Positions 8,951 to 27,040 of a stretch of 27,040 nt of DNA are shown here, piece after piece; positions within the stretch are counted from its first letter, which is position 1, and each line of letters starts with the position of its first letter. Source of the DNA: a virus; IMG/VR virus record IMGVR_UViG_3300024999_000330, positions 1-27,040 of that record; one strand, written 5' to 3'. The translations under genes were made by a program, and so were the position numbers. Under the pieces are notes generated by a model. The model saw only the letters and a list, made by a program, of their open reading frames with translations. It had not been told where the DNA came from and made no database searches.

Positions 8951-8959
8951 AACTAGCTC

Positions 8960-10345: not shown

Positions 10346-10683
10346 TTCGTATTATCCTGAACTATATCAAATTTTGCTTTTTGAACAGTCCTTACATCCG
10401 TTCCACTAGTTAACTGAATATCATAAAAATAATTTCCAATAGCCGCTGTATTCACTGTAGTTGGTTTAAAGACTACTATTCCAGTTGTTGGATCAGCATC
10501 TACAGTTCCTGTCATATCGAACAGTTTTGTAGTAGCATCTGGTGGATCTTTAATCGTAGTAACTGTCATCTTCAAAGTTGCTCCACTAAGTGATACCGGA
10601 AGAGCTGTATCACTATCAGTAATTGTAAAGGTAAGATCGTAAGAATCACCTCGGTACATTCTGATATCATTTTCGTTTGCCAT
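10342..10683 (-). CDS. BppU-like Ig-fold baseplate / fibre-attachment domain, 113 aa
   Basis: A single small beta domain: IRMYRGDSYDLTFTITD, then SLSGATLKMTV, DADPTTGIVVFKPT, GNYFYDIQL and VRTVQKAKFDIVQD. This strand order (RGDS start, SGATLK, GxVxF, YxYDIQ, KFxI end) is the classic N-terminal domain of phage upper baseplate proteins. I chose ATG at 10683 (MANEND) because GGGAGAATGAT lies just upstream and the large preceding gene stops at 10685; the frame is open further upstream to 10734, but that part overlaps the 1387-residue gene. It probably joins the large surface protein to the tail. As a stand-alone domain it is shorter than typical BppU. Confidence 0.75.
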   Translation of the reverse strand: MANENDIRMYRGDSYDLTFTITDSDTALPVSLSGATLKMTVTTIKDPPDATTKLFDMTGTVDADPTTGIVVFKPTTVNTAAIGNYFYDIQLTSGTDVRTVQKAKFDIVQDNTK

Positions 10684-10684
10684 A

Positions 10685-13600
10685 TCATTCTCCCTTTGTT
10701 GCGATGTATGTAGTCTGACTGAGGGTCGCAACAATCTCCGCAGCTACTATAGCCTCTATTTCGTGAGTATCATAAGAAGCCATAATCTCATCCTGAGTAG
10801 AAATAGCTTCAATTTCACTATCTTGAAATATACCCATAATTGTTTCTCGACTTAAAACTGCTTTAATTGTTGGAATAAATAAAGTAGCCTTATATGCTGT
10901 TTCGCCATAACTAACAATCATTTCTGGAAAGTAGCATTCAATTCTGATTGCTGAATAACCATCAATAATTGTGAACAACTCTATCCGACCAGTGTTCATG
11001 ATCGCGGTATTTGTAGGTACATCAACGGCAAAGGATGTCTCGACCTCGAATCCCCAAATAACCACTGTTGTCGTTGAATTATCTTCTGTTGCCAGAGCTT
11101 CTTCAATTATCATAGTAGCAATGATGTATGCTGAAGCTATCTCTTCAATCGCCGCTGTATCTGCAAGAGAAACGTAAATACCTCTCCATGCCACGATGAT
11201 CTCTAATGGTGTCAAAGTATCAGTCAAGCTATCTTCAGATCTCTTGTTAGCACTCTGTATAGCCCTGGATATCGCCCAAGCGTATCCCATGCTATTTGCA
11301 GTACGTTCTCCAGTTAGAGTATCAACTACAGACATACTATTAGAAGTCAATGCTACTTCTGGAGCGTTACCGTCTCCAGCAACAACAATGCTTGCTGTTT
11401 CTATTTCTACTCCCGAAGTAGCAGTGACTTGCCATGATACCTCGGTAATTATTTTTGTTTCAGTTGTACTTGCAGTGAAGGCAAGTATCGCTGGAGAAGC
11501 AACATCAATTGTCAAGGAGTCAGCACCAGCATCCGAGAAAGAAAGTGAACCGATTTCCGTAGAGGTTGGCGCAATTGTTGCAGTCCCAGTATCATTTAGC
11601 GTTGCTCCGATAACATCTCCACCACACTTAATCACCAAGGCGAACCCGTATAGTTCTGCCTGATTGATGTTGTTCAAGAGGATACTGGAATCTCCACCTA
11701 TCCTGGTGCATCCAACTGATAGGGCCTGCTCCCAATCAGTATAAGGCGGAACAGTGTCGTAAAAGTAATCGGATGCCAAAGTAATTCTTGGATATACTCC
11801 TATTTCGGGAACGGAATAATAGTCATTTGTAGAAAGAACTCCGACCACCATATCTCCGAGAACATAGTCAATATCCGAAATGGTGATGCCGTTCAAATAC
11901 CCTGCTGTCGTTCCCGACAGACTCCTGATCGGATCGCTTGAGATATCGGCATGTTTGACTTGAAAGGCGATAAACAGATCTGAATCGCGTTCATCAATCT
12001 CATTGCCATAATGTGGATTGTCTATGCCAATAGCTAGCGTCCCAGAGGTAGGATTCTTGACATAGGCAACAGTTATCGCCCGATCCGAAGAGTCGAGCAT
12101 GGTGTAATGCGTGGCAGAGACACCGTTCAAGGTCAGCGTGTAATCTCCGATTCCGAGCCAGGTGTCGGCATTGCTCCAATGTGAGGAAAAGATAACAACA
12201 AAAAGATTCACTCCTGACTCAATGATAACGCCCACGGCCGATGGATTGCTCCTGATAAGATAGGCATAACACCCAGTACGTGGTGCATTCACCACACCTG
12301 TGGGAATATCCACATACGATCCGTCGATCACGATAGGCAGGAGAGAGTTCTCAACGTCAGCATCATACAGCTCGTAAACCTGCGGTCTGTCAGAGATGGC
12401 CGCAGTCTCAGGCACGGACACATCATTGAGCAGGGTATCTATCCACTCAGGAGCATTCTTACATCGCAGACACAAGGCAACCGCGATGGGAGGGCGTTGT
12501 CCTGCCTGACGAAGGATTCCGAAGTCTGTCTCTGGTCCCATTGATATGCCAACAACTCCGTGCCATCCGCCCCAACTACCACTGCCCCCTTGAGTGACCT
12601 TGGCGTACTGCACTAATGGAGACGGAGGTGGCGGATATGTAGCCATTGGAGGAGCCTCGGTCATATCTGTAAACTCAACATCGCTGCAAATCATTCCAAT
12701 CAGAATATCCCCTGGAGAATGAGTTAAGTCATCAGGGGGGATATACGTGTCATAAGTGAATCCAAAGTCGTTTCTGGCGACACTGACTACCGAGTCGGTG
12801 ATGATGTCGACGTTTTTCAGGAAATTCAGCACGAACATAGAGTACGTCGAAGTATTCTCCATGTAGCAGTCCCAACTGAGTGCCTGCTCTCCCTGCGGTG
12901 GATTAACGAAGACATACGCTGCGACAGCGGCCAGGTTTGTGGTCTCGTAATAAGTGGCTATGCGCTGCGTGAAAGGTTCCCCGTTCAGGTAGAAGAACGT
13001 CCTTGTTGTAGATGTAGGCGTAGCCCAATCAGAGAAAGCATAAGGAGAATACGCCGTACAGAACAGCACGATGACCTCAGTCCCTGCCGGAATATTAATC
13101 GTGTAGCCGAAGTTTACTTGTGTCTCCGGGATTATTACGAGCGGAGCAGCCCTGTTGATCGTCGCATACGGACCTTCAAGTACGAGGATATTACTCACCT
13201 CGTCTTGGTGCGCATTTGGTGCTTCTCCGTCAGAAATTGTGGCAGGAGCACTACTCTCATCTTGGGCGACTATCACTACATCGCCGCCATCCAATCTGCC
13301 CTGAAGGTTGATTGCCATCAGGGACATCGCGTTACGGGTGGTATTTGTCGTGTAAACTCTGTGAGTGTTGATGGTCTTGTCAAAAACCACCATCCCTGCA
13401 TCTATGCCGTTTGGGGAAAACGATCCAATAAGTGTTTGAAAGTCGTCGGTGTAAGTCTCTCCGATGAGTTGAGTTTCGTAACTTAATACTGCCACTCCCA
13501 CCGTAAGTCCTATGGGGTCGTAGGCGTAGCCAGAAAGGATAGCGGGATCAGCCGAAATTGTCCCGCTGGAATGCATGGTGCTGACAATGGGATTCTCTCC

Positions 13601-14848
13601 GGTGCCTGTGTAAAACATCAGGCAAATGTGGTCTACTTTTTCGTCAGCATCCCCAGAGTTCCACGCAAATGTCTGTGCACCGATCAGCGGGTCGTGCTGG
13701 ACTATGAAGCACGTTTGCCCCCAATCGTTAAGAATGCCCTCCTGTACGAACGATTCTCCGCCCATCGTTGGCATCGGAATGCTGGAGATTGGCCCCATAT
13801 AGGAATAGTCGAAAACGAGCATTACTCCCACGACGAGCGTCGTCCCTGCGGGAACTGTAACGGAGAAACTTACCGATGACTGCGGCCCAGAAAAAGAACT
13901 CAGATATGCAGCCCCGGTTTGCGACGGGGGGGTGCTGGTCCTGACAGTGTCTTCAACACTTGCCGATTCTTCAGCACCATCTGTAGGCATATAGGGGAGT
14001 CGTCCGTCTGCGGTATCTGCGACCTCGTCTGTCTCTTCCTGGCTCACTCCGTATATTACCCCAGCGTCGGGCGTATCTCCTGCTGAAGAAGACTCCGCTG
14101 CATCTGTGAGAACAGGCAGAGAGCCGTTTGGCGAATCGGAGGTGGCGGCAGATTCTGTAATCCCTGCATCGTATGTGGTACCTCCCACGGGAGCCAGGGC
14201 GATGGTCAGGAATGCCGCCGTGACCGCTGTTGCACTGGAAACCGATGTTGTCCCGGTGTTCCCCGCCGTAGACTTGGTCGCTGTGCAAAGGCCAAGTCCG
14301 CCGCCCACACCTGAATTCCCGGTCTGGTCAACACGCGGAAACATCGAATCTGTGTCAAAACCGTAGTTAATCCACCATGTCAGCAGTGTATCTGTCTGTG
14401 TGGCATCGCGATCATTGCCGATGCACAAGAGAATGAGACAGTCTGCGACGGTGGTTACGACAGCGGGAAGAGTCCACGATGTAGACCCAGTCGCTCGGAC
14501 CGATCCAGCAGTAACATTTATCGGAGTGGTAGCGTTAGCATTGTAGAAGCTGAACATTTGGCCTGCTGTATAACTGCCAGCATCAGCAATACTGACTGCA
14601 GACTCAGAAGAGGCAGATACTTTCCAGAATGCATACAGGCGAACACCACCAGCAGATCCAGCAGTACCAGTGCCTTGAGGAGAGTTATCAACCTGCGTCC
14701 ATCCGCTCGGAGTAGCGACTGCTTCATTGGCAGTGTTCACCAGCAGGAGAAGGATATCTCCAGCTGAATATGTAGCAGGTACAGGAACAGAGATTGCCCC
14801 TGTTCCTATCGTAAATGTACCCTTATTTCTATATGATGGAGCAGCCAC
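10685..14848 (-). CDS. 1387-aa multi-module phage surface / tail protein
   Basis: GTG start nine bases after the previous stop, with AGAG as a weak ribosome site. Residues 1-220 form a beta-sandwich module (YSAGDILLLLVNT, LTIALAP). An acidic Ser/Thr/Asp linker with degenerate ES-A-DT repeats follows (about 222-300). Three diverged modules then come at roughly 334, 588 and 879; each has a hydrophobic strand (PAGTTLVVGVML; PAGTEVIVLFC; SGVNLFVVIF), then an NGE/GVS turn, then an NP/Q-x-x-x-W/I strand (GAQTFAWN; GEQALSWD; SGTLAIGI). From about 1100 on there are more acidic linker repeats, and the C-terminus has LSRETIMGIF- and EIEAIV-type repeats. No catalytic motif. Likely an adhesive tail or capsid appendage. 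Most of it (about 11.5-14.5 kb) is GC-richer than the flanking genes. Confidence 0.8.
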   Translation of the reverse strand: MAAPSYRNKGTFTIGTGAISVPVPATYSAGDILLLLVNTANEAVATPSGWTQVDNSPQGTGTAGSAGGVRLYAFWKVSASSESAVSIADAGSYTAGQMFSFYNANATTPINVTAGSVRATGSTSWTLPAVVTTVADCLILLCIGNDRDATQTDTLLTWWINYGFDTDSMFPRVDQTGNSGVGGGLGLCTATKSTAGNTGTTSVSSATAVTAAFLTIALAPVGGTTYDAGITESAATSDSPNGSLPVLTDAAESSSAGDTPDAGVIYGVSQEETDEVADTADGRLPYMPTDGAEESASVEDTVRTSTPPSQTGAAYLSSFSGPQSSVSFSVTVPAGTTLVVGVMLVFDYSYMGPISSIPMPTMGGESFVQEGILNDWGQTCFIVQHDPLIGAQTFAWNSGDADEKVDHICLMFYTGTGENPIVSTMHSSGTISADPAILSGYAYDPIGLTVGVAVLSYETQLIGETYTDDFQTLIGSFSPNGIDAGMVVFDKTINTHRVYTTNTTRNAMSLMAINLQGRLDGGDVVIVAQDESSAPATISDGEAPNAHQDEVSNILVLEGPYATINRAAPLVIIPETQVNFGYTINIPAGTEVIVLFCTAYSPYAFSDWATPTSTTRTFFYLNGEPFTQRIATYYETTNLAAVAAYVFVNPPQGEQALSWDCYMENTSTYSMFVLNFLKNVDIITDSVVSVARNDFGFTYDTYIPPDDLTHSPGDILIGMICSDVEFTDMTEAPPMATYPPPPSPLVQYAKVTQGGSGSWGGWHGVVGISMGPETDFGILRQAGQRPPIAVALCLRCKNAPEWIDTLLNDVSVPETAAISDRPQVYELYDADVENSLLPIVIDGSYVDIPTGVVNAPRTGCYAYLIRSNPSAVGVIIESGVNLFVVIFSSHWSNADTWLGIGDYTLTLNGVSATHYTMLDSSDRAITVAYVKNPTSGTLAIGIDNPHYGNEIDERDSDLFIAFQVKHADISSDPIRSLSGTTAGYLNGITISDIDYVLGDMVVGVLSTNDYYSVPEIGVYPRITLASDYFYDTVPPYTDWEQALSVGCTRIGGDSSILLNNINQAELYGFALVIKCGGDVIGATLNDTGTATIAPTSTEIGSLSFSDAGADSLTIDVASPAILAFTASTTETKIITEVSWQVTATSGVEIETASIVVAGDGNAPEVALTSNSMSVVDTLTGERTANSMGYAWAISRAIQSANKRSEDSLTDTLTPLEIIVAWRGIYVSLADTAAIEEIASAYIIATMIIEEALATEDNSTTTVVIWGFEVETSFAVDVPTNTAIMNTGRIELFTIIDGYSAIRIECYFPEMIVSYGETAYKATLFIPTIKAVLSRETIMGIFQDSEIEAISTQDEIMASYDTHEIEAIVAAEIVATLSQTTYIATKGE

Positions 14849-14857
14849 AATACTCTA

Positions 14858-15565
14858 TTAGGTCAGAGTGGCAGTATAACTAACATTCAACGTATCACCA
14901 TTAGCAAGAATCTTGTCACCACCAGTAAAAAGCCCAGCCGAAAACAGAGTTCCAGTAGTCCCAGACTTAGTAGATACTGAGTTCAAGAAGCAACCTTTGA
15001 TTGTTGTACCATCACCATTGATTGAATAGACACAAGCTGCGGACAGCGCTTTACTACCTGCTGCCGCTGCACTCCACGCGGTCGTTACTCTGGCTGCCTG
15101 TGAATATTCAACGTCTTCAGCCCATCCACCATGTGAAGCCATAGTATCGGTTACAGCTGCACCAGTCGTATAACTGGTAGAACTGATCAAACCAATATAC
15201 CATGCAGCAGTATAAGATGATCCGGCAAGATACTTATCCAGCATGTCATTCTTGCCGGCAGTCGTAACAAGGTTATCAAATGCCTCGGTCCACTTGACTT
15301 CCAGCTGGATCGAGGCGAACTCGGCCAGCATCTTACGAATGGACGCCCGCCGCAGGAACCTCCGAACCTTCCCTGCTTTCTTGAAGGCGAGAATCTTGTC
15401 GCGCAACAGAACATACCGTGCCCGAAACTCTTCAACCGGGCCGACGCACTCGACCCCGTACCGGCCGATGGCCTTGGATTGCTCTACCGCCTCGACGTTC
15501 TTGCCGATACTCGCGCCCTGAATGGAGAGGCCAAAGGTTTTCTCGCTTTTAACCATGTTCAACAT
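14858..15565 (-). CDS. podovirus-like structural protein with an N-terminal insertion, 235 aa
   Basis: From KWTEAFDNLV onward (residue 91) the protein has the pattern of a common phage structural protein found near the adaptor: MLDKYLAGSSYTAAWYIGLI, an Ala/Thr-rich TDTMASHGGWAED stretch, SINGDGTTIKGCFL, SGTTGTLFSAGLF and a C-terminal GDTLNVSYT. Between GVEC (37-40) and this core there is an unusual, very basic helical piece (about 42-88) with KAGKVRRFLRRASIRK, encoded by GC-rich DNA. ATG at 15565 has GAGG seven bases upstream and overlaps the previous gene by seven bases. The function is unknown; by position, a head or tail accessory. Family membership is recognised by pattern only. Confidence 0.7.
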   Translation of the reverse strand: MLNMVKSEKTFGLSIQGASIGKNVEAVEQSKAIGRYGVECVGPVEEFRARYVLLRDKILAFKKAGKVRRFLRRASIRKMLAEFASIQLEVKWTEAFDNLVTTAGKNDMLDKYLAGSSYTAAWYIGLISSTSYTTGAAVTDTMASHGGWAEDVEYSQAARVTTAWSAAAAGSKALSAACVYSINGDGTTIKGCFLNSVSTKSGTTGTLFSAGLFTGGDKILANGDTLNVSYTATLT

Positions 15566-15852
15566 TTATCCACCTCGTCGGGACCAGCAGTAAAAGTTAT
15601 CGGGATAAGCATTCCTTGACCGGCAATGCGGATAGTGTCAGTAAGACGGAAATGGCTTAAAATCTTCCTGGACACCACCTCTCCACCAGACGAAAATTCG
15701 AGAGTGACGTCGCGGTCCTTCCCCTCTCTGTGTTTTTTTGATATGCTCACGCACACATTATCAACACGGAAAAACACGCCTTTTTTGTTTCTGATAACGC
15801 AATCTCCAGGGTCGCTGTCGCCTAGTAATTCAAGTCCTCTTTGTGTCAGCAT
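15559..15852 (-). CDS. small hypothetical phage protein, 97 aa
   Basis: Unrecognised. It is beta-rich and acidic/basic mixed: MLTQRGLELLGDSDPG, VIRNKKGVFFRVDNVCVSIS, a charged KKHREGKDRDVTLEF hairpin, and a C-terminal IRIAGQGMLIPITFT strand. No membrane segment or signal peptide. I prefer ATG at 15852 over GTG at 15855, because GAGG lies about seven bases upstream of the ATG and TGATG couples it to the previous stop. It sits between the adaptor and structural genes, so it may be a small head-completion or tail-joining protein; nothing in the sequence proves this. Confidence 0.65.
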   Translation of the reverse strand: MLTQRGLELLGDSDPGDCVIRNKKGVFFRVDNVCVSISKKHREGKDRDVTLEFSSGGEVVSRKILSHFRLTDTIRIAGQGMLIPITFTAGPDEVDKC

Positions 15853-16046
15853 CACGCCACCTCTTCCAATTCAGATTCAAGGAACCATCGATGATGTGTT
15901 TCTAATACTCCATCATTATTGATATCCGTAGTCCATTCAAGACAATGCTCAAGACACCGCTTCTGCTTGTTGTACTGCACATCAACTACAACCCCCTCAA
16001 CAGTCGGTTGTTTCAACCTTGCTCTTTTTCCTTCTTCCAATGCCAT
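15852..16046 (-). CDS. small hypothetical phage protein, 64 aa
   Basis: Short, charged protein: EEGKRARLKQPTVEGVVVDV, then YNKQKRCLEHCLEWTTDIN and HHRWFLESELEEV. The CLEHC pair and His residues could bind a metal, but no known motif is complete. CAGGAG upstream supports ATG at 16046. It follows the adaptor gene after 19 bases and is coupled to the next gene by TGATG. The pattern VEGVVVDVQYN resembles small phage KOW- or joining-type domains; that resemblance is weak. Confidence 0.6.
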   Translation of the reverse strand: MALEEGKRARLKQPTVEGVVVDVQYNKQKRCLEHCLEWTTDINNDGVLETHHRWFLESELEEVA

Positions 16047-16065
16047 AACAGACTCCTGTTTTAAA

Positions 16066-16734
16066 TTATTTAAGCATCAAACCACGAGAATAAAATGGAA
16101 GTGTTAATTCAAATGTTCTCATTGCTTCAAGAAAAAGCTTTTTAAATTTAATAGTATTTGGTGTCTCACCCTCAAGACCATCTTCAATATGCTCATAAGA
16201 TTTCCAAGCAGCAAAATTCACCAGCAAAGATATATGTAAATGTGATGGAATTCCATCAGGAACATCATCATCTTCAACCATATCAACAGGCATTCTATAA
16301 TAATGCAACGTTAGTGTTTCAGCACTTGCAGGAATACCTTGATAATATAACTTCCTTCCATGTTCAATAGATTCAAAAATCCTACCAGGTTTATTCAACA
16401 ATGGATAAGTTTCTGCAAACTCAATAAATGAATGTGCGATATCAATCTCACTTCCAGTAGGTGAAACTACTAACTGTAAGTCACGTTGAAAATCAGTAGG
16501 CATATCTACAAAAGCATCAGTAAGTGACGTTGTTACAGTATCTATAGTAAACAACTCAGGCAATGGTGGTGTAAGTATATTTGGGATTGGATTATCAATT
16601 CCATCCAATAACGATGGCATTCCACCAGCAATTTCAGAAACTCCTTGATTAATAAAATCTCCCAAGTAATCTTCAAAAGAATCATCATTAATAAGAAGAT
16701 CAACCTTTTCTTTTAATGCACTAAAAGTAGCCAT
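16066..16734 (-). CDS. phage head-tail adaptor-like protein, 222 aa
   Basis: Helical protein with the pattern of phage adaptors: N-terminal LKEKVDLLINDDSF and LGDFINQGVSEI; central DMPTDFQRDLQLV; ETLTLHYYRMPVDMVEDDD; and DGIPSHLHISLLVNFAAW then EHIEDG, ending in FKKLFLEAMRTFEL. The YYR-x-P and D-x-IPxxxH...IEDG series is what I recognise from adaptor/connector families near capsid genes. AAGGAG stands four bases before ATG. In most podovirus-like phages this gene lies close to the capsid gene; here some 9 kb of accessory genes separate them. Confidence 0.7.
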   Translation of the reverse strand: MATFSALKEKVDLLINDDSFEDYLGDFINQGVSEIAGGMPSLLDGIDNPIPNILTPPLPELFTIDTVTTSLTDAFVDMPTDFQRDLQLVVSPTGSEIDIAHSFIEFAETYPLLNKPGRIFESIEHGRKLYYQGIPASAETLTLHYYRMPVDMVEDDDVPDGIPSHLHISLLVNFAAWKSYEHIEDGLEGETPNTIKFKKLFLEAMRTFELTLPFYSRGLMLK

Positions 16735-16742
16735 AAAGCTCC

Positions 16743-16982
16743 TTATAAATCATCTGGAGTTATTGGGGTAGTTATAAAATTTTCCTCTGGTTCAGGCCTA
16801 TGCACAGGAACACTTTGCTTCTCGCCTAATGGTTTTGGATCAGTATACTGTGGATGCTTTTCTTCCCAACAGGTATCAGCACAAACAAACAACTTATCCC
16901 AAGTCATACGACATTCAGATGCATATCTTTGGAAGCCACATTGATCACAGATTACTAAATAATCACCAGGTTTATATGACAT
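16743..16982 (-). CDS. phage zinc-ribbon structural-region protein, 79 aa
   Basis: Two CxxC-type pairs: CDQCG near residue 12 and CADTCWEEKHPQ near 34-45. Between them lies YASECRMTWDKLFVC. This TWD-x-L-x-VC...W-x-x-x-HPQ pattern occurs in many small phage proteins near the capsid or tail genes. The last 30 residues are Pro/Glu-rich and flexible. AAGG lies upstream of ATG at 16982, 12 bases after the lysozyme stop. It probably binds one zinc ion. Its exact role in phages is not established; it marks the return to the virion-assembly block. Confidence 0.7.
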   Translation of the reverse strand: MSYKPGDYLVICDQCGFQRYASECRMTWDKLFVCADTCWEEKHPQYTDPKPLGEKQSVPVHRPEPEENFITTPITPDDL

Positions 16983-18687: not shown

Positions 18688-19236
18688 TTAATATTCCTTC
18701 TCGTCGTTTTTATAAAGCGCATCTTCATTATCAGGTAGTCTAGTGTCAAGGATCTTTGCCCAATGATTATTCCTAGCTATAGCTAATCTCTTTAGTCTGT
18801 CTTTTACAGTCGGATTCTCCAACGGATTAATATCTTCTTTACGGTTCTTAGTAAACCATGAAAAGAACAAGATTCCCATCGTACTAACTGCCGTTAAATA
18901 TATTCCAGTTACCGAAGTCAACATCTTAATCTTAGGCCACAAGTCAAGATCAGAAGCAAGAACTAACTCTACACAATTCAGAAAAAATCTACCGTTCGCT
19001 CCCATGAATGCTGACAAGTTCTTAGCTGAACAAGACCATTCAACATCATGACAAAGACCTGCTGGATTGAGATAAACCTTTCCGATTTTGTCTGGCACTA
19101 TTGCATCTCCCCAACCTTGGCCAGCTCCACAGAATGTTGGCCATGCCTCGGGAGGCAAATCATGCGGCCATAGAGGTTCAAGAAAATCAGGAATTGTTAG
19201 ATCAGCCCCCCAATATGAAATCTTAACAAAATTCAT
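18688..19236 (-). CDS. putative phospholipase A2-like protein with C-terminal membrane anchor, 182 aa
   Basis: ATG at 19236 has GGAGGAAGA before it and overlaps the nuclease stop (ATGA); the earlier in-frame start at 19281 would overlap the nuclease gene. Residues 36-43 (CGAGQGWG) resemble a PLA2 calcium loop, and C62-H63-D64 in the NPAGLCHDVEWS segment resembles the PLA2 catalytic HD. FMGANGRFFLNC follows, as in small PLA2 helices. A hydrophobic segment at about 105-124 (SVTGIYLTAVSTMGILFFSW) is a likely membrane helix, with a charged cytoplasmic-type tail after it. If right, it would cleave membrane lipids, perhaps in lysis or entry. The family call rests on short motifs only. Confidence 0.5.
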   Translation of the reverse strand: MNFVKISYWGADLTIPDFLEPLWPHDLPPEAWPTFCGAGQGWGDAIVPDKIGKVYLNPAGLCHDVEWSCSAKNLSAFMGANGRFFLNCVELVLASDLDLWPKIKMLTSVTGIYLTAVSTMGILFFSWFTKNRKEDINPLENPTVKDRLKRLAIARNNHWAKILDTRLPDNEDALYKNDEKEY

Positions 19237-19700
19237 TTCTTCCTCCAAACCCAAGGCCTTACAGGAGCAGGAGCAGCCCACAGCCCTACTCGATTACCAG
19301 CTGAAATACCTTGGAGTTTTTCCCAGGCTTGACAAAATGACTTCTTGCAATACTGAGGATAAACCCAAGCATAACCAGCAAGCAAAAGCTGCTCTTGTAC
19401 ACATTGTGTTCCAAGCATCACAACAGCTACTGTTCGTCCATATCTATCATAATGTTTAGCATCAACAGGAGCAATATCAACAACCTTACCTTTGATCATT
19501 ACTTCAACAAAATCTTTAGCTGCAAGACCAAATGCTTGTTTCTTTTCAGGAGAATCAATTCCATAAAGCCGAACAGTCGTTAGACCAGTCTCATCAACAA
19601 CTTTGATTGTATCACCATCAGTAACACTTACAACTGTGGCTGGTTTAGCTTGAACAATCGAAGCTACAAGTAAAAAGAATAAGATTATAATTTGACACAT
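19233..19700 (-). CDS. exported thermonuclease (SNase-like), 155 aa
   Basis: Cleaves DNA or RNA at calcium-dependent sites, as staphylococcal nuclease does. Residues matching the active site are present: Asp28 in VTDGDT, Arg44 in TTVRLYGID, Asp49, Glu52 in SPEKK, and Arg89 in HYDRYGR. C-terminal AGYAWVYPQYC and AGNRVGLWA are standard for the family. Residues 1-18 form a signal peptide ending VQA. I chose ATG at 19700 because AGGTG lies seven bases upstream; it overlaps the previous small gene by 16 bases. Export suggests it works in the periplasm or outside the cell, perhaps against competing phage DNA. Phage and plasmid genomes do carry exported SNases. Confidence 0.88.
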   Translation of the reverse strand: MCQIIILFFLLVASIVQAKPATVVSVTDGDTIKVVDETGLTTVRLYGIDSPEKKQAFGLAAKDFVEVMIKGKVVDIAPVDAKHYDRYGRTVAVVMLGTQCVQEQLLLAGYAWVYPQYCKKSFCQAWEKLQGISAGNRVGLWAAPAPVRPWVWRKK

Positions 19701-19873
19701 AATTTTACACCTGTTGGTTGATATCGAAAGCACTCACAACTTATACTGGCCCTGCCGTGGTCATCAAAAGAGAAGCATGGACCCGGTTCCTTGCAATATC
19801 GATCCTTGACAAAATGCAAACCCTGATCATTTTTCTTTAATAACTGCAAACTGTCTTCTGCAATCACCCTCAT
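19685..19873 (-). CDS. small Cys-rich protein, 62 aa
   Basis: Unrecognised. ATG at 19873 has a strong GGAGG site just upstream, preferred over a GTG at 19909. The protein starts MRVIAEDSLQLLKKN and has five Cys: YCKEPGPCF, ISCECF, and one near the C-terminus. The PCFSFDDHGRASISCECF pattern is compact and may bind metal or form disulfides, but there is no signal peptide. It is translationally linked to the exported nuclease by a 16-base overlap, so the two may act together; a nuclease inhibitor or partner is possible but unproven. Confidence 0.6.
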   Translation of the reverse strand: MRVIAEDSLQLLKKNDQGLHFVKDRYCKEPGPCFSFDDHGRASISCECFRYQPTGVKLCVKL

Positions 19874-19912
19874 CTCTCCCTCCAGGAAGTAAAGGAAAAC
19901 TTCAATCACAAA

Positions 19913-20602
19913 CTACCAATACATCGTTACAGTTTTACTGCTGTCACCATACGGAGCATGGAGATAGATGCCCCCGTGGCTGGTACCTGTATCGTTATCG
20001 CCATCACCATTCGGGCCGATACCGGGCTTGTAGACAAAGCCGTACATGGCCGCTTTCGAGTTACGACTGCAATTCTCTTGGTCCCGGCAATTCTTCAGCG
20101 GATTTTTGATGATGAAGGTTTTGTTGGATGCAAAGACAAACTTGATCGGACCCGCCCCCAGGTCTTTGCCGCTCTTGGATATCCGCCATGCCTGCCTGCC
20201 ACCATTGCGGACCCCATAACTGGTGTATGTTGCCTTATGGTCATAATCGCCGGTCGTCGCCGGTCCTGACGGTGTCTCGCCGGTCCCGGTCGTCGCAGTA
20301 TAGGTCTGCCCGTCGGCCATGGTAATAATCATTCTGAGCGGCCGGGAATATTGCTCTCCCGGTTTTGACATCAAGAAGACAGGCCCGCCATTGTAAGGCT
20401 TTCCCTCTGTGGCGAGTTCTCCGTTGACAGTCACTGCCTTGATATCGCCTGGCTTGAGCGTGCGAAATAATACTCCAGCCCGGCCATTTCCCTGCGTTGT
20501 CGCCCGCTCAAACTCGACCTTCCATGGAAAAGCCTTTGTCGGTTCAACCGTCGGCGTCGCTCCCTCAACGAATACGTGACCGCAGTTCGGGCATTTTGCC
20601 AT
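19913..20602 (-). CDS. zinc-knuckle N-terminus plus beta-rich protein, 229 aa
   Basis: Begins MAKCPNCGH (C4, C7), a one-pair zinc-binding start that may need partner Cys such as those in NCRDQENC near 170-178. The rest is beta-rich, with GRAGVLFRTLKPGDIKAVTVNGE, MIITMADGQTYTATTG and a C-terminal GGIYLHAPYGDSSKTVTMYW. No signal peptide. The GC-rich coding matches the lipoprotein before it. ATG at 20602 overlaps the lipoprotein stop (TGATG); a GTG one codon earlier is possible. It resembles no enzyme I know. The repeated short strands suggest a carbohydrate-binding or virion-surface fold. Confidence 0.65.
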   Translation of the reverse strand: MAKCPNCGHVFVEGATPTVEPTKAFPWKVEFERATTQGNGRAGVLFRTLKPGDIKAVTVNGELATEGKPYNGGPVFLMSKPGEQYSRPLRMIITMADGQTYTATTGTGETPSGPATTGDYDHKATYTSYGVRNGGRQAWRISKSGKDLGAGPIKFVFASNKTFIIKNPLKNCRDQENCSRNSKAAMYGFVYKPGIGPNGDGDNDTGTSHGGIYLHAPYGDSSKTVTMYW

Positions 20603-20973
20603 CACTCAATCTCCTCGATCTGACCCTCTGGTTCAACCGGCGCGTCTTCGAGGCCTTCCGATTCGGACGGTTCGGCCGGCTTGACCTCTTCCTTGATCTC
20701 GGTCTTTGTGGTCGTGGTCGTAGTCTTCTGAGACATATCCGGTACTAACTTGCCTACTGCATCTCGAATACCTCCAAGCGAAGCGAGTCCACCGTCAGCA
20801 GCTGCAGAACCAGAAGCATCCTGAGTCGGAGTAGTAGCAGTTGTCAAGCCCTGTGCATCGGTTTTCATTGTACCACTTCCAGTCTGATTAAATGTAATTT
20901 CAGTCGGACTGTAGTTTACAGAACAACTTGTTAACAGGCCAGAGGCCAGTACTACTGCTAAAAATCTCTTCAT
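20602..20973 (-). CDS. phage-encoded lipoprotein, 123 aa
   Basis: MKRFLAVVLASGLLTSC carries a lipobox (LLTSC) with lipid-attachable Cys17. Ser at +2 favours outer-membrane sorting under the Gram-negative Lol rule. The mature part is polar and probably extended: Thr/Ala/Gly/Asp-rich, then a poly-Thr stretch and an acidic Pro/Glu C-terminus (EIKEEVKPAEPSESEGLED). ATG at 20973 is used because GGGGGAG lies just upstream; a TTG at 20985 is in frame. A small lipoprotein near lysis genes could be an outer-membrane spanin, but it is several genes away from the coiled-coil partner candidate. A superinfection or host-surface role is an alternative. Confidence 0.75.
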   Translation of the reverse strand: MKRFLAVVLASGLLTSCSVNYSPTEITFNQTGSGTMKTDAQGLTTATTPTQDASGSAAADGGLASLGGIRDAVGKLVPDMSQKTTTTTTKTEIKEEVKPAEPSESEGLEDAPVEPEGQIEEIE

Positions 20974-21010
20974 TCTCTCCCCCAAAGGTTAATTTTTAAT
21001 TTCAGAAACC

Positions 21011-21047
21011 CCCGCTCGTTGCCGATCATCGCATATCTCCGAGCGGG
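21011..21047 (-). terminator. possible weak terminator at end of the IPT/TIG gene
   Basis: CCCGCTCG (21011-21018) pairs with CGAGCGGG (21040-21047), straddling the stop of the 378-residue gene. On the minus strand the stem is followed by GGTTTCTG, only a poor U-run. It lies just before the lipoprotein gene and may attenuate or separate the two groups. Confidence 0.4.
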
Positions 21048-22162
21048 ACTGTTCCGCGAGGTTGTGGGCCGCCTGGGATGGTGATTTGATAGCCTGTGGA
21101 TACCGCGCCAGCGTCATCAATTACATATAGGTAAGCAGTATCGCCAGGATCAAATTGCCCAAGATTGGCAGAGATGGTAATTCCCGTATCGCTCCATGCC
21201 GTAGGTATTTGGATCTCTTTTCGGTGTTGAACCGTATCGCTCCATGTGGCATATTCTGATATTTCCACCCTAGCCTGGGTGAGATCTGCATAAGCATCAT
21301 CCATATATTGAAACCACGTATAAGTATCGTCTCCCTGGAACTGGTACATTAGCCAAGATAGATAATTGAATCCATCACCCACACCTCTCGCGATTAAGTC
21401 GGCGTCTGAATTATAAAACTCATGAGTGCGAGATATTTTTTTCCCGTCAACGTACCAGTTATGGATCTTCTGTCCGTCTGGCTTGGTGAGATCAACGTAA
21501 ATGTCGAACCTATGCCAGGTCCCCATCGGGGAATAATTGAAAAGCGGATCATTATCTCCTTCGGAATAATATCCATCCTCGGTTTCTGTGCGAAGCGGAA
21601 TATCTACTGAATCCTTCCTTGTTTGGAAGTACGTTTTAGCGCCGTCACTGCCATCGAGAGTCCCGAGTGGTGTCATACATAAGAATTTCGTTTGATCAAC
21701 CATCGAGGTGTCGTAGTTTATTCCGTCATCGAACCCAGCAGGGAACATAAACCACCCGGAAATGAAAATCTTTTTCTGAAACGTCGCAAGTGGCAAGTGA
21801 AAACCATACATTAGCGCGGTGTTTTTAGCCGTTCCCCACACGTTCGTATATGCTTGAGGTGTGGCCCAGTAATATCCTTTTGCAGCGTAACTGCTATTTG
21901 TTTTTTGAAGGGCTGTGTTCGTCTCCAGGGCAACCCCTGTGTTGCCCGTAAATATCGAATCAGCAGTACCTGTTTCAAAGTTTTCCCACCCCGCCGCCAG
22001 GTATTCCCGAGAGGTGTTATGGTCTGCGTGAGATCCAAACCCCGAGCCTGCAATTGTTACCTGGCTCCCCTGAGAAATTGCCTCGGATACTGATGTTACA
22101 CTCGGGGCGGCCCATAACGTTGACGCCCATAGAGACATTATGACAACCAGTAGTATTCTCAT
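21026..22162 (-). CDS. exported IPT/TIG plus concanavalin-like surface protein, 378 aa
   Basis: Signal peptide (1-18) ends TLWA. The first mature strands, PSVTSVSEAISQGSQVTIAGSGFG, are the start of an IPT/TIG domain. The middle 80-300 is a sandwich-like region with an aromatic and Asp-rich pattern: FISGWFMFPAGFDDG, MGTWHRFDIYVDL, NWYVDGKKIS and WFQYMDDAYADL. This is the layout of polysaccharide-binding or lyase-like LamG folds; no catalytic set is clear. The C-terminal 80 residues end in a GDTAYLYVIDDAGAVS strand pair. It overlaps the LamG-like gene by four bases. A glycan-binding surface protein is likely; whether it sits on the virion or is secreted by the host is unclear. Confidence 0.7.
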   Translation of the reverse strand: MRILLVVIMSLWASTLWAAPSVTSVSEAISQGSQVTIAGSGFGSHADHNTSREYLAAGWENFETGTADSIFTGNTGVALETNTALQKTNSSYAAKGYYWATPQAYTNVWGTAKNTALMYGFHLPLATFQKKIFISGWFMFPAGFDDGINYDTSMVDQTKFLCMTPLGTLDGSDGAKTYFQTRKDSVDIPLRTETEDGYYSEGDNDPLFNYSPMGTWHRFDIYVDLTKPDGQKIHNWYVDGKKISRTHEFYNSDADLIARGVGDGFNYLSWLMYQFQGDDTYTWFQYMDDAYADLTQARVEISEYATWSDTVQHRKEIQIPTAWSDTGITISANLGQFDPGDTAYLYVIDDAGAVSTGYQITIPGGPQPRGTVPLGDMR

Positions 22163-22842
22163 TCCACTCTCACATCATCAATATAAAGCGGGTTGACAGG
22201 AACGGTGCCTGTGGTTGCCCCTACATCAATTCTGGCCGGGGTTACGCCTGAGTCCCACACTCCGGCCATAGAACCGCTCCCCGCTGCGCTCCCGTTAATC
22301 GCCAACGACCAGTCTGTTGCTCCGCCATTTTGGCTGTATGTAAGTGCAATATCATTCCACTGTCCTGACAGCATCGTGTTGTTGCTTGATATCGCGTACA
22401 GAATAGTTCCAGTCAGTTTGTAAGCGAAGACTACTCTATCTGTCGTTGTGTGATAGACTTCTATACTGTTGCTCGTATTTCCATAGATAGTTAATGCCCT
22501 TGCTGATGACCCTACGAGCGTGTAATTACTATACAGTTTCAGCCGAATAACACCGCCAAGCGGATTATAGGCATTCGCGGTGAAGCGGTAATAATCATAA
22601 CTCCCAGTCGCCTTGAGCGACTGTGTGGGAGATGCTGCGTAATCCGTGGAGAGTGTTGGATCTCCGTTGACTGTGGCCTGGACTGTACCAGAGCTTAGAT
22701 TTGCCGTATCTGTCTCGGCATCCCAGTCGAACAGATACGTACCACCCTGCACCTTCGCCATCGTCACACCGACATTATGTGATCCAGCAAACGACAGGCC
22801 GGGAATCAGCGCCAGCAATAAAACCAGTATGAGTTTTTTCAT
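22159..22842 (-). CDS. exported LamG-like lectin domain protein, 227 aa
   Basis: MKKLILVLLLALIPGLSFA is a clear signal peptide; ATG at 22842, right after the fibre-like stop, is preferred to 22854. The mature protein is one beta sandwich: YDYYRFTANAYNPLGGVIRL, VGSSARALTIYGN, VYHTTTDRVVFAYKL, SGQWNDIALTYSQNGG, WSLAINGSAAG and the final NPLYIDDVRVE. The W-x-x-I-A-L-T-Y...L-x-I-N-G and final I-D-D-V-R-V-E strands are standard LamG/concanavalin features. It contains no catalytic residues I can name. It probably binds sugars or host surface, paired with the two neighbouring signal-peptide proteins. Confidence 0.78.
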   Translation of the reverse strand: MKKLILVLLLALIPGLSFAGSHNVGVTMAKVQGGTYLFDWDAETDTANLSSGTVQATVNGDPTLSTDYAASPTQSLKATGSYDYYRFTANAYNPLGGVIRLKLYSNYTLVGSSARALTIYGNTSNSIEVYHTTTDRVVFAYKLTGTILYAISSNNTMLSGQWNDIALTYSQNGGATDWSLAINGSAAGSGSMAGVWDSGVTPARIDVGATTGTVPVNPLYIDDVRVE

Positions 22843-22844
22843 AA

Positions 22845-24878
22845 TCAATCCCAATCCCCCTCAATCTGCCACGAGCATTCATTCAAAGCGTCGTCCGGGT
22901 CGGAGAGCGTGACAAAAACTTTTGTGCCTGCCGGAATAGTTGTATCGTCAATACCTGATGTTATGGTTGCCGCGCCGTTGACAGTCAAGACAGCCTCAAT
23001 CGTGGTTGGAGTGCCGTAACCAATTCCCGCTGCCTTGTGCTGAAAAGTGAATGTCGTTTCTGTGGTCGGGTTGGCATCGCAGGAGACGGATATCTCAGTG
23101 ATGGTGAATGCTGCCGGAACATCGTTGATGAGCGTTACCGAGGGAGATACCGCGTAGATTGCCTGTGGGTCGAGCAGAGTGCCGTAGAAATCGGCTTCTG
23201 TGCCGCTGACGTATTTTGCCCTCACCTCAGTGTCCCTTGCGATTGCAGCATCAATTTTCGATTCGCTGAGTGTGCCATCGGCAAGGTCATCGAGGTCTGC
23301 GTCATATGCCTGGACCGCCCCGCCAATATCACGGGAGAGAATGATATCATACTCAGTGTCATTCTCGACCGCCTTCAGTGCACCACCTTCATTGTATATT
23401 TCTTCGCTGCCATCTGCGAGCGGGGCAATGCTGGTGTTGTTGGGAATGATTGATCTGCGGCTACCATCTGCGGCTGTGGTGGAGATGGATTTTACAGACA
23501 TATCGCCATCTGCATCAATCGTGAATCCTGCCGCGCCTGCGGAGATAGTCCCAACCGTGATATTTGGAGTACCAGAAAGCCCTGCTGCCGTGCCGGTGGT
23601 GTTCTGGTTGAGGGTTGGTACGTCTGCCGCTACCATCGCCCGGAAGGACGGCACGCCGGCTGATCCGTTTGGAGCAGCATAAATGTAATTCGCGGTCTTG
23701 CTGGTGATCAGTCCGCTATACTGCGAGTTCGTGGCATCGTCGCCGGTATTGGTGCCGCTATTTGTGCCAGTAATATCAGAGAGGCGAGCGAGTGTCCCGT
23801 CAGCAGCAGGCAAACTCAGGGTGTAATTCGTCGCGCTTGAGTTGGTGCTGTCAATCGAAGTAACACCAGTAGATGATCCTTTTACCTTCAGCATTGAGGG
23901 ATCAAAGGTCTTCGCGCCGGTGATAGACTGTGCTCCTGCCGCTACGATTGGGTTGGTCAGTGCCGCCTGCTTATTGTTAAATGTACTCCAATCCGTGCCG
24001 GACAATGCCCCAGTGACTCCCGCAGAGGCAAGGCCGAGAGAGAGTTGCTGTGTAGCAAGAGAAAGCCCGTTTGTCGGATCGCCCAGGGTGACGGCATCAT
24101 GCGCCGCACCAGAGGGGGTAGACCACGACGGAGCAACTGCTGCACCGTTGGATTTCAGGTATTCACCATCTGAACCAAGAGCGAGTTCCTTGACATCACC
24201 CGAGCCATCAGAGTAGAACATTCTCCAAGCTGTCTGAGTTAAAAAGGACGTAAGGTTAGTGTATCCGCCTGTTACCGAAAGATCATCAAGTTTTTGAGCA
24301 ACCTCCTGAACAGTATCATCGGTAATCGTCAAGTTGCCATCAAATCCAGTTGCTGTTACAGTAAGTGCAGAGGCTGAGGTCTGATCGCCTGTATTAGTGC
24401 CACTGGTGTTACCAATAACGGTCTTCTCAGCGTCCGTTACATAGTTATCATCTGTTCCAAGAGCTTCAGCGAATGTTGCCGGATCAACAAGACCCATTTG
24501 AGTATTCTCATCAACATTAATTAGCCTAGTAGTGCCGGCAGCCGGCGGAGCATCTATTGGCAATCTCCAGTTTCTGTTTACTACAGCATTACCAGCCTGC
24601 AACGAGGTCCAAAACCCGCTTGGTCCATATAGTTTAATTAAGTCTCCACCATCTGAAGTACCATCTAAGCAAGGTCCTACAGTACATGATCCAACGAGAG
24701 TTGTTGCTGTAGCGGGTACTCCAAGTGATGTTCTTGCATTTACCACAGTAGCTGAGTTTGTACCCCCTTTAGCCACATCTAAATAACCATTTGCATCTGA
24801 ATCACCATCAACATCAGCAAAAACAAATACGGGCAAGGACAGCAACGTTACAATGATAAAACTAAGTCTCTTTTTCAT
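22845..24878 (-). CDS. tail-fibre-like protein with a Sec signal peptide, 677 aa
   Basis: MKKRLSFIIVTLLSLPVFVFA is an obvious signal peptide followed by DVDGDSD. The body has fibre-like repeats: SGTNTGDQT and SGTNTGDDA units, SDGEYLKSNGAAVAPSWSTP, and TDWSTFNNKQ, all usual in phage tail fibres. The C-terminal 120 residues form a beta head: FTITEISVSCDANPTTET, GTPTTIEAVLTVNG and IPAGTKVFVTLSDP. Signal peptides are not usual on fibre proteins, which assemble in the cytoplasm. TAATG overlap with the small exported gene and GAGGGAATA upstream support ATG at 24878. Most of the gene is GC-richer than the neighbouring small genes. It may be displayed by the host or be a decoy. Confidence 0.8.
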   Translation of the reverse strand: MKKRLSFIIVTLLSLPVFVFADVDGDSDANGYLDVAKGGTNSATVVNARTSLGVPATATTLVGSCTVGPCLDGTSDGGDLIKLYGPSGFWTSLQAGNAVVNRNWRLPIDAPPAAGTTRLINVDENTQMGLVDPATFAEALGTDDNYVTDAEKTVIGNTSGTNTGDQTSASALTVTATGFDGNLTITDDTVQEVAQKLDDLSVTGGYTNLTSFLTQTAWRMFYSDGSGDVKELALGSDGEYLKSNGAAVAPSWSTPSGAAHDAVTLGDPTNGLSLATQQLSLGLASAGVTGALSGTDWSTFNNKQAALTNPIVAAGAQSITGAKTFDPSMLKVKGSSTGVTSIDSTNSSATNYTLSLPAADGTLARLSDITGTNSGTNTGDDATNSQYSGLITSKTANYIYAAPNGSAGVPSFRAMVAADVPTLNQNTTGTAAGLSGTPNITVGTISAGAAGFTIDADGDMSVKSISTTAADGSRRSIIPNNTSIAPLADGSEEIYNEGGALKAVENDTEYDIILSRDIGGAVQAYDADLDDLADGTLSESKIDAAIARDTEVRAKYVSGTEADFYGTLLDPQAIYAVSPSVTLINDVPAAFTITEISVSCDANPTTETTFTFQHKAAGIGYGTPTTIEAVLTVNGAATITSGIDDTTIPAGTKVFVTLSDPDDALNECSWQIEGDWD

Positions 24879-25078
24879 TATTCCCTCACAAGTACATAAT
24901 TGCCGCCAAGTGTTATTTTTTCAGCTCCAAATGCTAAATATGTTTTTGTTACTGTACCACCATAAAACATTGTTAATAGATATAATGGTTTCATAGCCCA
25001 CGCACTACCAGCTATTAACAAAACTACTAAAAGTGCTAATGTAATTGATTTGCTATAAGTATTTTTCATATTAATCAT
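24878..25078 (-). CDS. small exported peptide, 66 aa
   Basis: ATG at 25078 has GAGG nine bases upstream and overlaps the previous stop by eight bases; another ATG at 25069 is possible. The N-terminus is basic then hydrophobic (SITLALLVVLLIAG), ending SAWA, so a signal peptide is likely. The mature part is about 38 residues, with KPLYLLTMFYGG, TVTKTYLAFGAE and GGNYVLVRE. I recognise no family. It may be a processed short peptide or a small membrane protein (the hydrophobic segment could stay as an anchor). Its position before the fibre-like gene, with translational overlap, suggests a shared role. Confidence 0.6.
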   Translation of the reverse strand: MINMKNTYSKSITLALLVVLLIAGSAWAMKPLYLLTMFYGGTVTKTYLAFGAEKITLGGNYVLVRE

Positions 25079-25514
25079 TAACCATTGCCTCAGTAATAAC
25101 GCGAAATTTATCACCTACAGTAATTGTTCCTGTAAATGCATAAGTAAAGCCTTTTGCAAGACATAAAGGATTTCCAGTGTTTGGTTGATACAAGATTCCA
25201 TCCGCTATTAAAGCATCAGCTAAAGGTCCAGTAACAGTAAGTGCTGAACTATTTCTAACTGTAGTAGTAATAGAAGCTGGAGCTGGAGTAAGAAAATCAA
25301 GATATAGCCAAGTAATGCATCCACCAGCAGTCGGAAGAGTAAGTGTATCAATAGTATTTTCAACAGTAGCAGTAAACTCATAAGTAAATTGTACTGTAGG
25401 AGATCCATGACTACCTATTGCACCAGCTTCAATACCACCTACTCTTGACCAAGCAGCAAAAGAATTCGTACTACAAACTAATAACAACAAAAAGATAATA
25501 TTAATAATCTTCAT
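25071..25514 (-). CDS. exported beta-rich protein, 147 aa
   Basis: Signal peptide 1-20 (MKIINIIFLLLLVCSTNSFA). The mature protein starts AWSRVGGIEAG and has strands VQFTYEFTATVENTIDTLTL, WLYLDFLTPAPASITT and SALTVTGPLADALIAD, ending FTGTITVGDKFRVITEAM. The layout is that of a small Ig-like or jelly-roll sandwich. No catalytic residues. It is the first gene of the exported block: a hairpin lies upstream, and GAGG stands six bases before ATG. It may have its own promoter, but I cannot identify one. Function unknown. Confidence 0.7.
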   Translation of the reverse strand: MKIINIIFLLLLVCSTNSFAAWSRVGGIEAGAIGSHGSPTVQFTYEFTATVENTIDTLTLPTAGGCITWLYLDFLTPAPASITTTVRNSSALTVTGPLADALIADGILYQPNTGNPLCLAKGFTYAFTGTITVGDKFRVITEAMVND

Positions 25515-25645: not shown

Positions 25646-26050
25646 CTAACTTACAGTACAAACAGAAGAAATCAGCAATGAACCATCAGGCTTGACAAAA
25701 ACAACATAATAACTAGCAGCAGCGGCAGTAATAGTCAGTCCAAGCAATCCAGCTGCAGTCGTAGTAAACAAACTCGGCCCAGCACTACCAAGATTAGTAA
25801 GAGCACCATTAGTCAATTTTACAAGACTTGTAGTAGCTAAATTATGAGATAATCCGGCAGAGCTTGTACTTAAATAAAGCATCCCAGATACAGGAGCCGT
25901 AACAGCATTACCAAAGACATCTTTGAAAACAAATTGAACTGCACAGGAACCTGATGCAGGTGTAGCAGTAGTAGTTACAGATGCGAAGGCAGGAAAGATT
26001 GCATTGCCTTCGAAAGTCGGGCCATTTTTACCAAAAGAATATTTTCCCAT
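25646..26050 (-). CDS. possible head-decoration / capsid accessory protein, 134 aa
   Basis: Beta-rich and hydrophobic, with little charge: FASVTTTATPASGSCAVQFVF, DVFGNAVTAPVSGMLYLS, GPSLFTTTAAGLLGLTITA and the final YYVVFVKPDGSLLISSVC. This order (QF-x-F-x-D-x-x-G, YLS, final YYVVF-x-PDG) is what I recall of small phage proteins next to capsid genes, probably capsid decoration. ATG at 26050 has GAGGAG eight bases upstream; a GTG at 26059 is in frame. It follows the major capsid gene after a 99-base gap with a hairpin and precedes a hairpin gap. Family recognition is by pattern only. Confidence 0.65.
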   Translation of the reverse strand: MGKYSFGKNGPTFEGNAIFPAFASVTTTATPASGSCAVQFVFKDVFGNAVTAPVSGMLYLSTSSAGLSHNLATTSLVKLTNGALTNLGSAGPSLFTTTAAGLLGLTITAAAASYYVVFVKPDGSLLISSVCTVS

Positions 26051-26149: not shown

Positions 26150-27040
26150 TCATGCAGCACCAGGCGAACCAAAAATGCCTCGCGGATCAGACCAACCAAA
26201 CGAACCCCTGAAAGTTGCTTTAAACTTTGCATTCTCGGCATCAAAATCATTCTCAGTTCCAAATGCATCCGGCCGCCTTTCCATATACTTGAGGCCATCA
26301 GGACAGTTGGTCTTAATAAACCATGCATCACTATCCGTCAGGTAATGATTCACAGCGATGCCTTGTGGAAACTTCTTCGAAGCCCGAATAGCATTGATAT
26401 CATTATTCGCGCTGCCGGACTGCCCAATAGATTCGAGAATCCGCATAGCGTCAAACTCAAGTGCAGTAGGAATGATCAACTTCTGTGGCATAATCGCGAT
26501 CTTGAGTCCCCGATCAGTAGTAAATGCTGCAATGTCGATGCAAGCCTGCTCGAGAGCAGCTTCACTCAGGTCAGCGGCAGTAGAGAGTTCATTCTGCCAA
26601 GTTCCACCAGACTTATTCGGATGATCAGTAGCACAAAGCTCCTTACCATCACTATTAGTCCCCATAGTATAAGCAGCAGTAAACGCCCGATTAAGTATGT
26701 TTGCCCCAATGATCTCTTTGGGGCAAACATACTTAAAGGCCAGAGCATTTGCACGACGCAAAGCAACCGTAACCGCAATACCATCTTCGTACATTTCCCT
26801 AGTAATAATAAACCCAAGACCATACGTTACATGAGTGTAGCGACTAACAAATCCTTGCTCTTGCTCATCATATGCAATCCCTGCTCCTTCAGTCTTCACA
26901 GCTGCAAGCCCGAACCCAGTTACGCCAGCTTCCTCTTCAAAAGCCTTTGTAGAGTTACCCTTTTCAAAAATATCCAAATATTCAATCGGATACTCTTTAT
27001 ATTTCTGCCCGAACCAAGTCTTGACACCAGGCACCAGATC
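26150..27040 (-). CDS. major capsid protein (HK97-type), N-terminus cut by window edge
   Basis: The frame is open through the right edge; a GTG at 27034 is probably an internal Val (DLVPGVKTWFG), so the true start lies outside. The 296 visible residues show the capsid pattern: WFGQKYKEYPIEYLDIFEKG, VTYGLGFIITREMYEDG, then ANALAFKYV and IGANILNRAF, LCATDHPNKSGG, a TTDRGLKIAIMPQKLIIP shell strand, FPQGIAVNHYLTD and a C-terminal FRGSFGWSDPRGIFG. Length and order fit the HK97-fold family often found in podovirus-like phages. It heads the visible operon. A perfect 19-bp inverted repeat lies inside it (26691-26736). Confidence 0.88.
   Translation of the reverse strand, partial: DLVPGVKTWFGQKYKEYPIEYLDIFEKGNSTKAFEEEAGVTGFGLAAVKTEGAGIAYDEQEQGFVSRYTHVTYGLGFIITREMYEDGIAVTVALRRANALAFKYVCPKEIIGANILNRAFTAAYTMGTNSDGKELCATDHPNKSGGTWQNELSTAADLSEAALEQACIDIAAFTTDRGLKIAIMPQKLIIPTALEFDAMRILESIGQSGSANNDINAIRASKKFPQGIAVNHYLTDSDAWFIKTNCPDGLKYMERRPDAFGTENDFDAENAKFKATFRGSFGWSDPRGIFGSPGAA
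26691..26736. repeat. perfect 19-bp inverted repeat inside the capsid gene
   Basis: TTAAGTATGTTTGCCCCAA (26691-26709) and its exact reverse complement TTGGGGCAAACATACTTAA (26718-26736) flank an eight-base loop, entirely inside the coding region for FKYVCPKEIIGANILN. The downstream-coding half (GANILN) looks conserved in the family; the upstream half looks changed, as if copied from it in reverse. Confidence 0.95.

Follow-up and report, generated by a model that had tools for sequence, protein, structure and literature searches.

Tailed phages, in the textbook view, assemble complete particles in the cytoplasm; why, then, would one of them encode a run of exported proteins among its late genes? 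The window analysed here is the whole 27,040-nucleotide record IMGVR_UViG_3300024999_000330, in which the late genes all lie on the minus strand and lead from the major capsid protein (MCP; 26150..27034, minus strand), our anchor for the locus, through a signal-rich block to the endolysin and tail genes. The MCP is 52-54% identical to annotated podovirus MCPs and, with the MCP adjoining the block and the endolysin and tail genes downstream, the operon is of the podovirus type, in keeping with the phage late operon proposed in the initial annotation. A decoration- or cement-like protein (25646..26050, minus strand) is recognised by its position after the MCP, where a cement protein is annotated in DSL-LC04; many of the closest relatives have an unrelated 312-residue protein instead of this 134/137-residue one. 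A very large protein at the left end of the window (2-4345; more than 1448 residues, truncated there) is, to judge by its position, probably a polyvalent or internal virion protein.

Relatives of the MCP numbered 148 in viral contigs, from which 80 loci were kept, and in bacterial genomes, sought for host identification, they were confined to two distant MAG contigs. Where the capsid protein is 94-98% identical to that of the window, gene maps (with gene starts assigned in this analysis, and many of the contigs being fragments) show the capsid-to-lysis stretch swapped wholesale, with exported proteins still encoded. The G+C content is about 0.36 in the sequence flanking the block and 0.54 within it, a rise that fits the expectation for imported cassettes. 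The podoviruses DSL-LC04, CRP-901/902, HTVC023P and Pag-Yong1 have MCPs 44-53% identical to that of the window and arrange their capsid and adaptor genes in a similar order, but no comparable exported run was found in the seven regions scanned, in which HTVC023P has one convincing signal protein.

Export signals were called with rules of our own rather than with SignalP, based on n-region charge, h-region hydrophobicity and an AXA site or lipobox. Signal peptidase I signals were called for the 147-, 66- (from the ATG at 25078), 677-, 227- (ATG at 22842) and 378-residue proteins and for a nuclease from its 166-residue start; the 155-residue start of the nuclease has the same h-region and AQA site behind a neutral n-region. 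A signal peptidase II site (LLTS followed by C) was called for a lipoprotein of 123/127 residues. These calls agree with the six signal peptides and one lipobox on a single strand initially annotated, and the genes, all on the minus strand, mostly overlap or abut. By the same rules the n-, h- and c-regions and the signal peptidase I site expected of Sec substrates are present. None of the other window proteins tested passes at its listed start; one weak call for the decoration-like protein (h-region 1.9), from an alternative ATG, was treated as false. Across the window and eight related contigs, signals occur in 34 of 87 block genes versus 13 of 690 other genes (Fisher p 3e-25), so that their clustering in the block is not due to chance. 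Apparent mismatches between homologues with and without a signal proved to be start-codon errors, with the exception of a 229-residue protein described below. We regard export of the signal-bearing proteins, as predicted from their sequences, as very likely.

The first two genes of the block encode the 147-residue protein (25071..25514, minus strand; signal MKIINIIFLLLLVCSTNSFA, cut before A), which is kept in L022-L024, and the 66-residue protein (24878..25078, minus strand; signal ending LLIAGSAWA, cut before M, by rule-based call). Small signal-bearing proteins like the latter also precede the fibre in two T7-like phages, G412 and G416. In L066, whose MCP is 84% identical, six signal-called proteins surround the adaptor gene (8873-16752), one of them with a Tat-like RREFLK motif.

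At the core of the run are the 677- and 227-residue proteins. The former (22845..24878, minus strand) has the signal MKKRLSFIIVTLLSLPVFVFA, cut before D (24816-24878), tail-fibre-type repeats (GGTNSATVVNARTSLG and GTNTGDQT) and a C-terminal domain, the type-1 tip (22848..23219, minus strand), which ends ALNECSWQIEGDWD and was found in seven loci. The latter (22159..22842, minus strand) consists of a signal, a putative docking peptide beginning GSHNVGVT and a LamG-like domain (Pfam Laminin_G_3, 2e-7); the docking peptide, GSHNVGVTMAKVQGG (22741..22785, minus strand), starts at the predicted cleavage site. From these features we read the 677-residue protein as a fibre ending in a tip domain, with the 227-residue protein as its predicted tip adhesin. 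When the fibre is compared with that of L023, the N-terminal half is largely near-identical, the C-terminal tip differs, and the next exported protein differs too: tip and adhesin have been swapped together, the window having a type-1 tip and a GSH adhesin and L023 a type-2 tip and a GQGMGPGPG adhesin. Among the fibres of the seven type-1 loci at least six are distinct, and their stems are of five kinds; each has a signal wherever the fibre start is available, and in 7/7 the next gene encodes a signal-bearing protein whose mature start is GSH(N/S)V(G/S), variable thereafter. This paired exchange argues for binding between tip and docking peptide, and we consider such a pairing, with putative docking, probable.

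The type-2 tip and adhesin, a second pair built to the same design and orthogonal to the first, are present in many unrelated phages from many metagenomes. A single-query search for the tip returned 54 loci and a profile search 121 viral stretches, of which 80 were kept. A Sec signal was called in 70 of the 78 evaluable type-2 fibres, with three near-misses. The liberal start rule used for these fibres, applied to 249 other frames of the loci, scored 27 of them as signals. Shine-Dalgarno sites accompany about half of the fibre starts that have a signal, versus 9% of random ATGs. The remaining five fibres are signal-less, and in four of these the next gene also lacks a called signal. Related phages had been proposed as the place to look for missing signals, and these five are what was found there, the close homologues of the window proteins having retained theirs. 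The type-2 adhesins have the mature start GQGMGPGPGFKTY or similar behind their signals: PGPG occurs within the first 80 residues in 52 of the 76 genes that follow type-2 fibres, 3-18 residues (usually 5-8) past the predicted cut where one is called. At least four adhesins have a Tat-type signal instead (L258/L187 DRRRFLK, L261 SRRTFIK, L300 TRRLFLR, L255 PRRKLLR) and keep the PGPG docking peptide, so that the export route has changed and the mature start has not. Exactly two cysteines are found in 79 of 85 distinct tips, a set that combines the 80 kept stretches with the earlier loci and from which duplicates were removed only where tips were identical; both are invariant in a 20-row alignment, which fits an oxidising compartment. 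The tip is rare in bacteria (two weak matches among 399 Pseudomonadota genomes), and searches of 50,697 cultured-phage records, and of plasmids, with tip and adhesin gave no match at the sensitivity used.

The arrangement recalls gp37-gp38 of the T-even phages, in that a small adhesin gene directly follows the fibre gene (here usually with an ATGA overlap) and the adhesin combines a conserved N-terminal attachment segment, here GSH.V. or Q..PGPG, with a variable distal or receptor domain; among the adhesins, L173 has a match to Pfam Gly_rich_2. The difference lies in export, since both partners here mostly carry Sec or, for adhesins, Tat-type signals, whereas gp38 is signal-less and acts in cytoplasmic assembly. 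The window proteins have no match to the gp38 family in Pfam or PHROGs, and the open-access literature searched yielded no earlier description of exported fibre/adhesin pairs.

Whether such proteins reach the virion can be judged from relatives. Homologues of the fibre and adhesin in unrelated phages are located among tail genes. The exported proteins L197 (the same as L286) and L207 have a podovirus tailspike head-binding domain (PDB 7eeq, 9vyg/9vyh) directly after the signal, matched with E-values of 2e-4 and 2e-5 singly and of 2e-6 as a three-sequence profile with L161, which alone gives a weak match (0.0045) and continues into a beta-helix; Phage Tail Collar domains are also present in L197 and L207. 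These relatives differ from the tailspikes in having a signal before the domain, and the window fibre differs in that neither a head-binding nor any other recognised virion-attachment domain was found in it with Pfam and PHROGs. In the T7-like G412 and G416, PHROGs identifies genes for capsid or terminase, for the tail and for internal virion proteins. The exported fibre-like genes adjoin the last of these, and neither of the two records, which may be incomplete, showed an unexported fibre. A candidate T7 gp17 attachment domain in a 524-residue protein of G416 was unsupported by Pfam, PHROGs or PDB. Over 71 residues, a small exported protein of G416 shares 42% identity with an unexported protein of the isolated phage Pag-Yong1; ordinary genes of the virion region thus seem to have acquired signals. 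A further phage, G415, has unexported fibre-like proteins besides its exported pair; adjoining this pair is a 968-residue protein (34778-37684 of G415, also L311) with the Tat-like start MMRRRLLLGSALSS. Among siblings of the window, unexported SGNH-esterase or deacetylase-like fibres occupy the same slot, and in some an orphan copy of the N-terminal anchor of these unexported fibres sits before the exported fibre. In isolated phages, fibres with similar repeats are signal-less, so export is not generally needed for fibres. Taken together, the head-binding domains, the G412 and G416 loci and the sibling anchors speak for attachment at lysis rather than for secretion as a separate programme, short of proof, and by analogy with these relatives we propose virion attachment after lysis as a tentative conclusion, at somewhat less than even confidence.

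The explanation that we prefer, to which we would give an even chance on the sequence evidence, is that the core of the run consists of receptor-binding parts that pass into the periplasm and are added to virions when the cell lyses. Fibre and tip adhesin would be late products whose cleavable Sec signals take them into the periplasm, where the tip could form a disulfide and the N-terminal peptide of the adhesin, freed by cleavage (GSHNVGV..), would dock on the tip domain of the fibre. At lysis the fibre-adhesin complex would meet and join the virions, so that the host-recognition parts would be completed outside the cytoplasm. In the third slot, the 378-residue protein would be a glycan-binding or glycan-degrading partner, and the nuclease and lipoprotein secreted accessories.

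In the initial annotation, the run looked like a dedicated cell-surface or periplasmic programme. The nuclease (19233..19733, minus strand) is an exported homologue of staphylococcal nuclease (Pfam SNase, 3e-18), found in 18 relatives, in which the motifs D-G-D-T, R-L-Y-G-I-D-S-P-E and Y-D-R-Y-G-R can be read and the catalytic motifs look intact. The lipoprotein (20602..20973, minus strand) has Ser at +2 of its lipobox, the outer-membrane type by the +2 rule, and lipoproteins occur at the equivalent position in relatives; its conserved acidic C-terminus was dropped as a candidate tag, because the next gene has its ribosome-binding site in that DNA. Llp and Cor are small, late superinfection-exclusion lipoproteins of phages, to which the window lipoprotein compares by description, as a small late lipoprotein, though not by a defence-family match. 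Between lipoprotein and nuclease lie the 229-residue protein (19913..20602, minus strand), whose core is aligned behind a zinc-ribbon-like N-terminus in the window, L007, L014, L015, L018 and L033 and behind a Sec signal in other relatives, and a 62-residue protein called without a signal (19685..19873, minus strand); the AF2 model of the former (pLDDT 78) gave no confident fold match in Foldseek.

Lectins, lipoprotein and nuclease could act apart from the virion, on the infected cell, by hiding or changing its receptors and by degrading DNA that enters the periplasm, as a form of superinfection exclusion. The lipoprotein and nuclease are kept among relatives with differing fibres, and the window also encodes a 1387-residue repetitive, signal-less fibre-like protein (10685-14848; G+C about 0.5; no homologue in the loci of the 80 MCP relatives) which could be the real receptor-binding protein and leaves room for this alternative. 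Against it, unrelated phages encode the fibre/adhesin pair beside their tail genes, a head-binding domain is present in two or three of the exported fibres, and a defence-family search gave no match beyond the SNase domain itself. We consider a separate programme unlikely, at roughly one chance in four, with superinfection blocking by nuclease and lipoprotein a possible role. What stands of the initial reading is that an exported, mostly glycan-oriented set (LamG, beta-helix, GH123-like, M28 peptidase, SNase) is co-encoded and exchanged between near-identical phages; its separateness from the virion is not our leading reading, the 677- and 227-residue proteins being a predicted fibre and tip adhesin with homologues among tail genes.

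The third slot is filled in the window by the 378-residue protein (21026..22162, minus strand), with a TIG-like N-terminus and a jelly-roll, and in relatives by unrelated exported proteins, the forms across the group being TIG plus jelly-roll, beta-helix, M28 peptidase, GH123-like and PL14/disaggregatase-like. Its AF2 model is weak (pLDDT 57), and the top Foldseek matches, PL14 alginate lyase and TtX122, do not reach an E-value below 0.001, so the fold is not confidently assigned; homologues of its domain occur both with and without a signal. It ends in a tag, RGTVPLGDMR (21029..21058, minus strand), common to unrelated exported proteins and seen as RGTVPLG(D/N)M(R/Q) in the window, L014, L018, L006, L145, L146, L148 and L149. 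A DNA-pattern scan of all viral contigs found 12 such stretches, in this phage group only and each at the extreme C-terminus of such proteins, with three kinds of downstream DNA and variable third codon positions at 8 of 10 codons, a count that overstates conservation since the pattern fixes most first and second positions. Pairing of the tag with lipoprotein type was dropped, as no correlation was seen among the loci compared. A second C-terminal tail, SLSG.QGAGLGG.GSVTI, is present on L118 and L004 proteins, and past the tag in L006/L145 and L014 lie apparent remnants of two different endolysin starts (MTGNERAFLDMI.. and MTQALFWLALTVYHEARGES) after the third-slot gene.

Third-slot proteins of the beta-helix, GH123-like, M28 peptidase and PL14/disaggregatase-like kinds, all signal-bearing, together with the unexported SGNH or deacetylase-like fibres in the fibre slot of relatives, are what might be expected of a secreted depolymerase/adhesin set that clears or binds extracellular polysaccharide for progeny dispersal and is never on virions. 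We regard this as improbable, the head-binding domains and the dedicated pairing of tip and adhesin being left unexplained; nuclease, lipoprotein and 378-residue protein may still be secreted helpers. It is very improbable that the N-terminal hydrophobic segments are virion or membrane anchors and not export signals, for although cleavage is a prediction and one nuclease start has a neutral n-region, AXA sites are present, the docking peptides start at the predicted cleavage point, and Tat-type signals replace Sec with the mature N-terminus unchanged.

For this phage and dozens of unrelated ones, then, signal-bearing fibre-like proteins and tips suggest that host-recognition parts are finished outside the cytoplasm. 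More tentatively, and at rather less than even odds, many uncultivated phages may export fibres and adhesins via Sec (adhesins sometimes via Tat) for folding in the periplasm, with virions left incomplete until lysis or later. The exported fibre/adhesin class is widespread in metagenomic contigs and, at the sensitivity used, has no match among the cultured-phage records searched. If the proposal is right, host recognition in many environmental phages would rely on periplasmic folding, which would account for the usability of disulfide-bonded adhesins, and the combination of signal, tip domain and docking peptide would provide a sequence rule for finding receptor-binding proteins missed by virion-based annotation.
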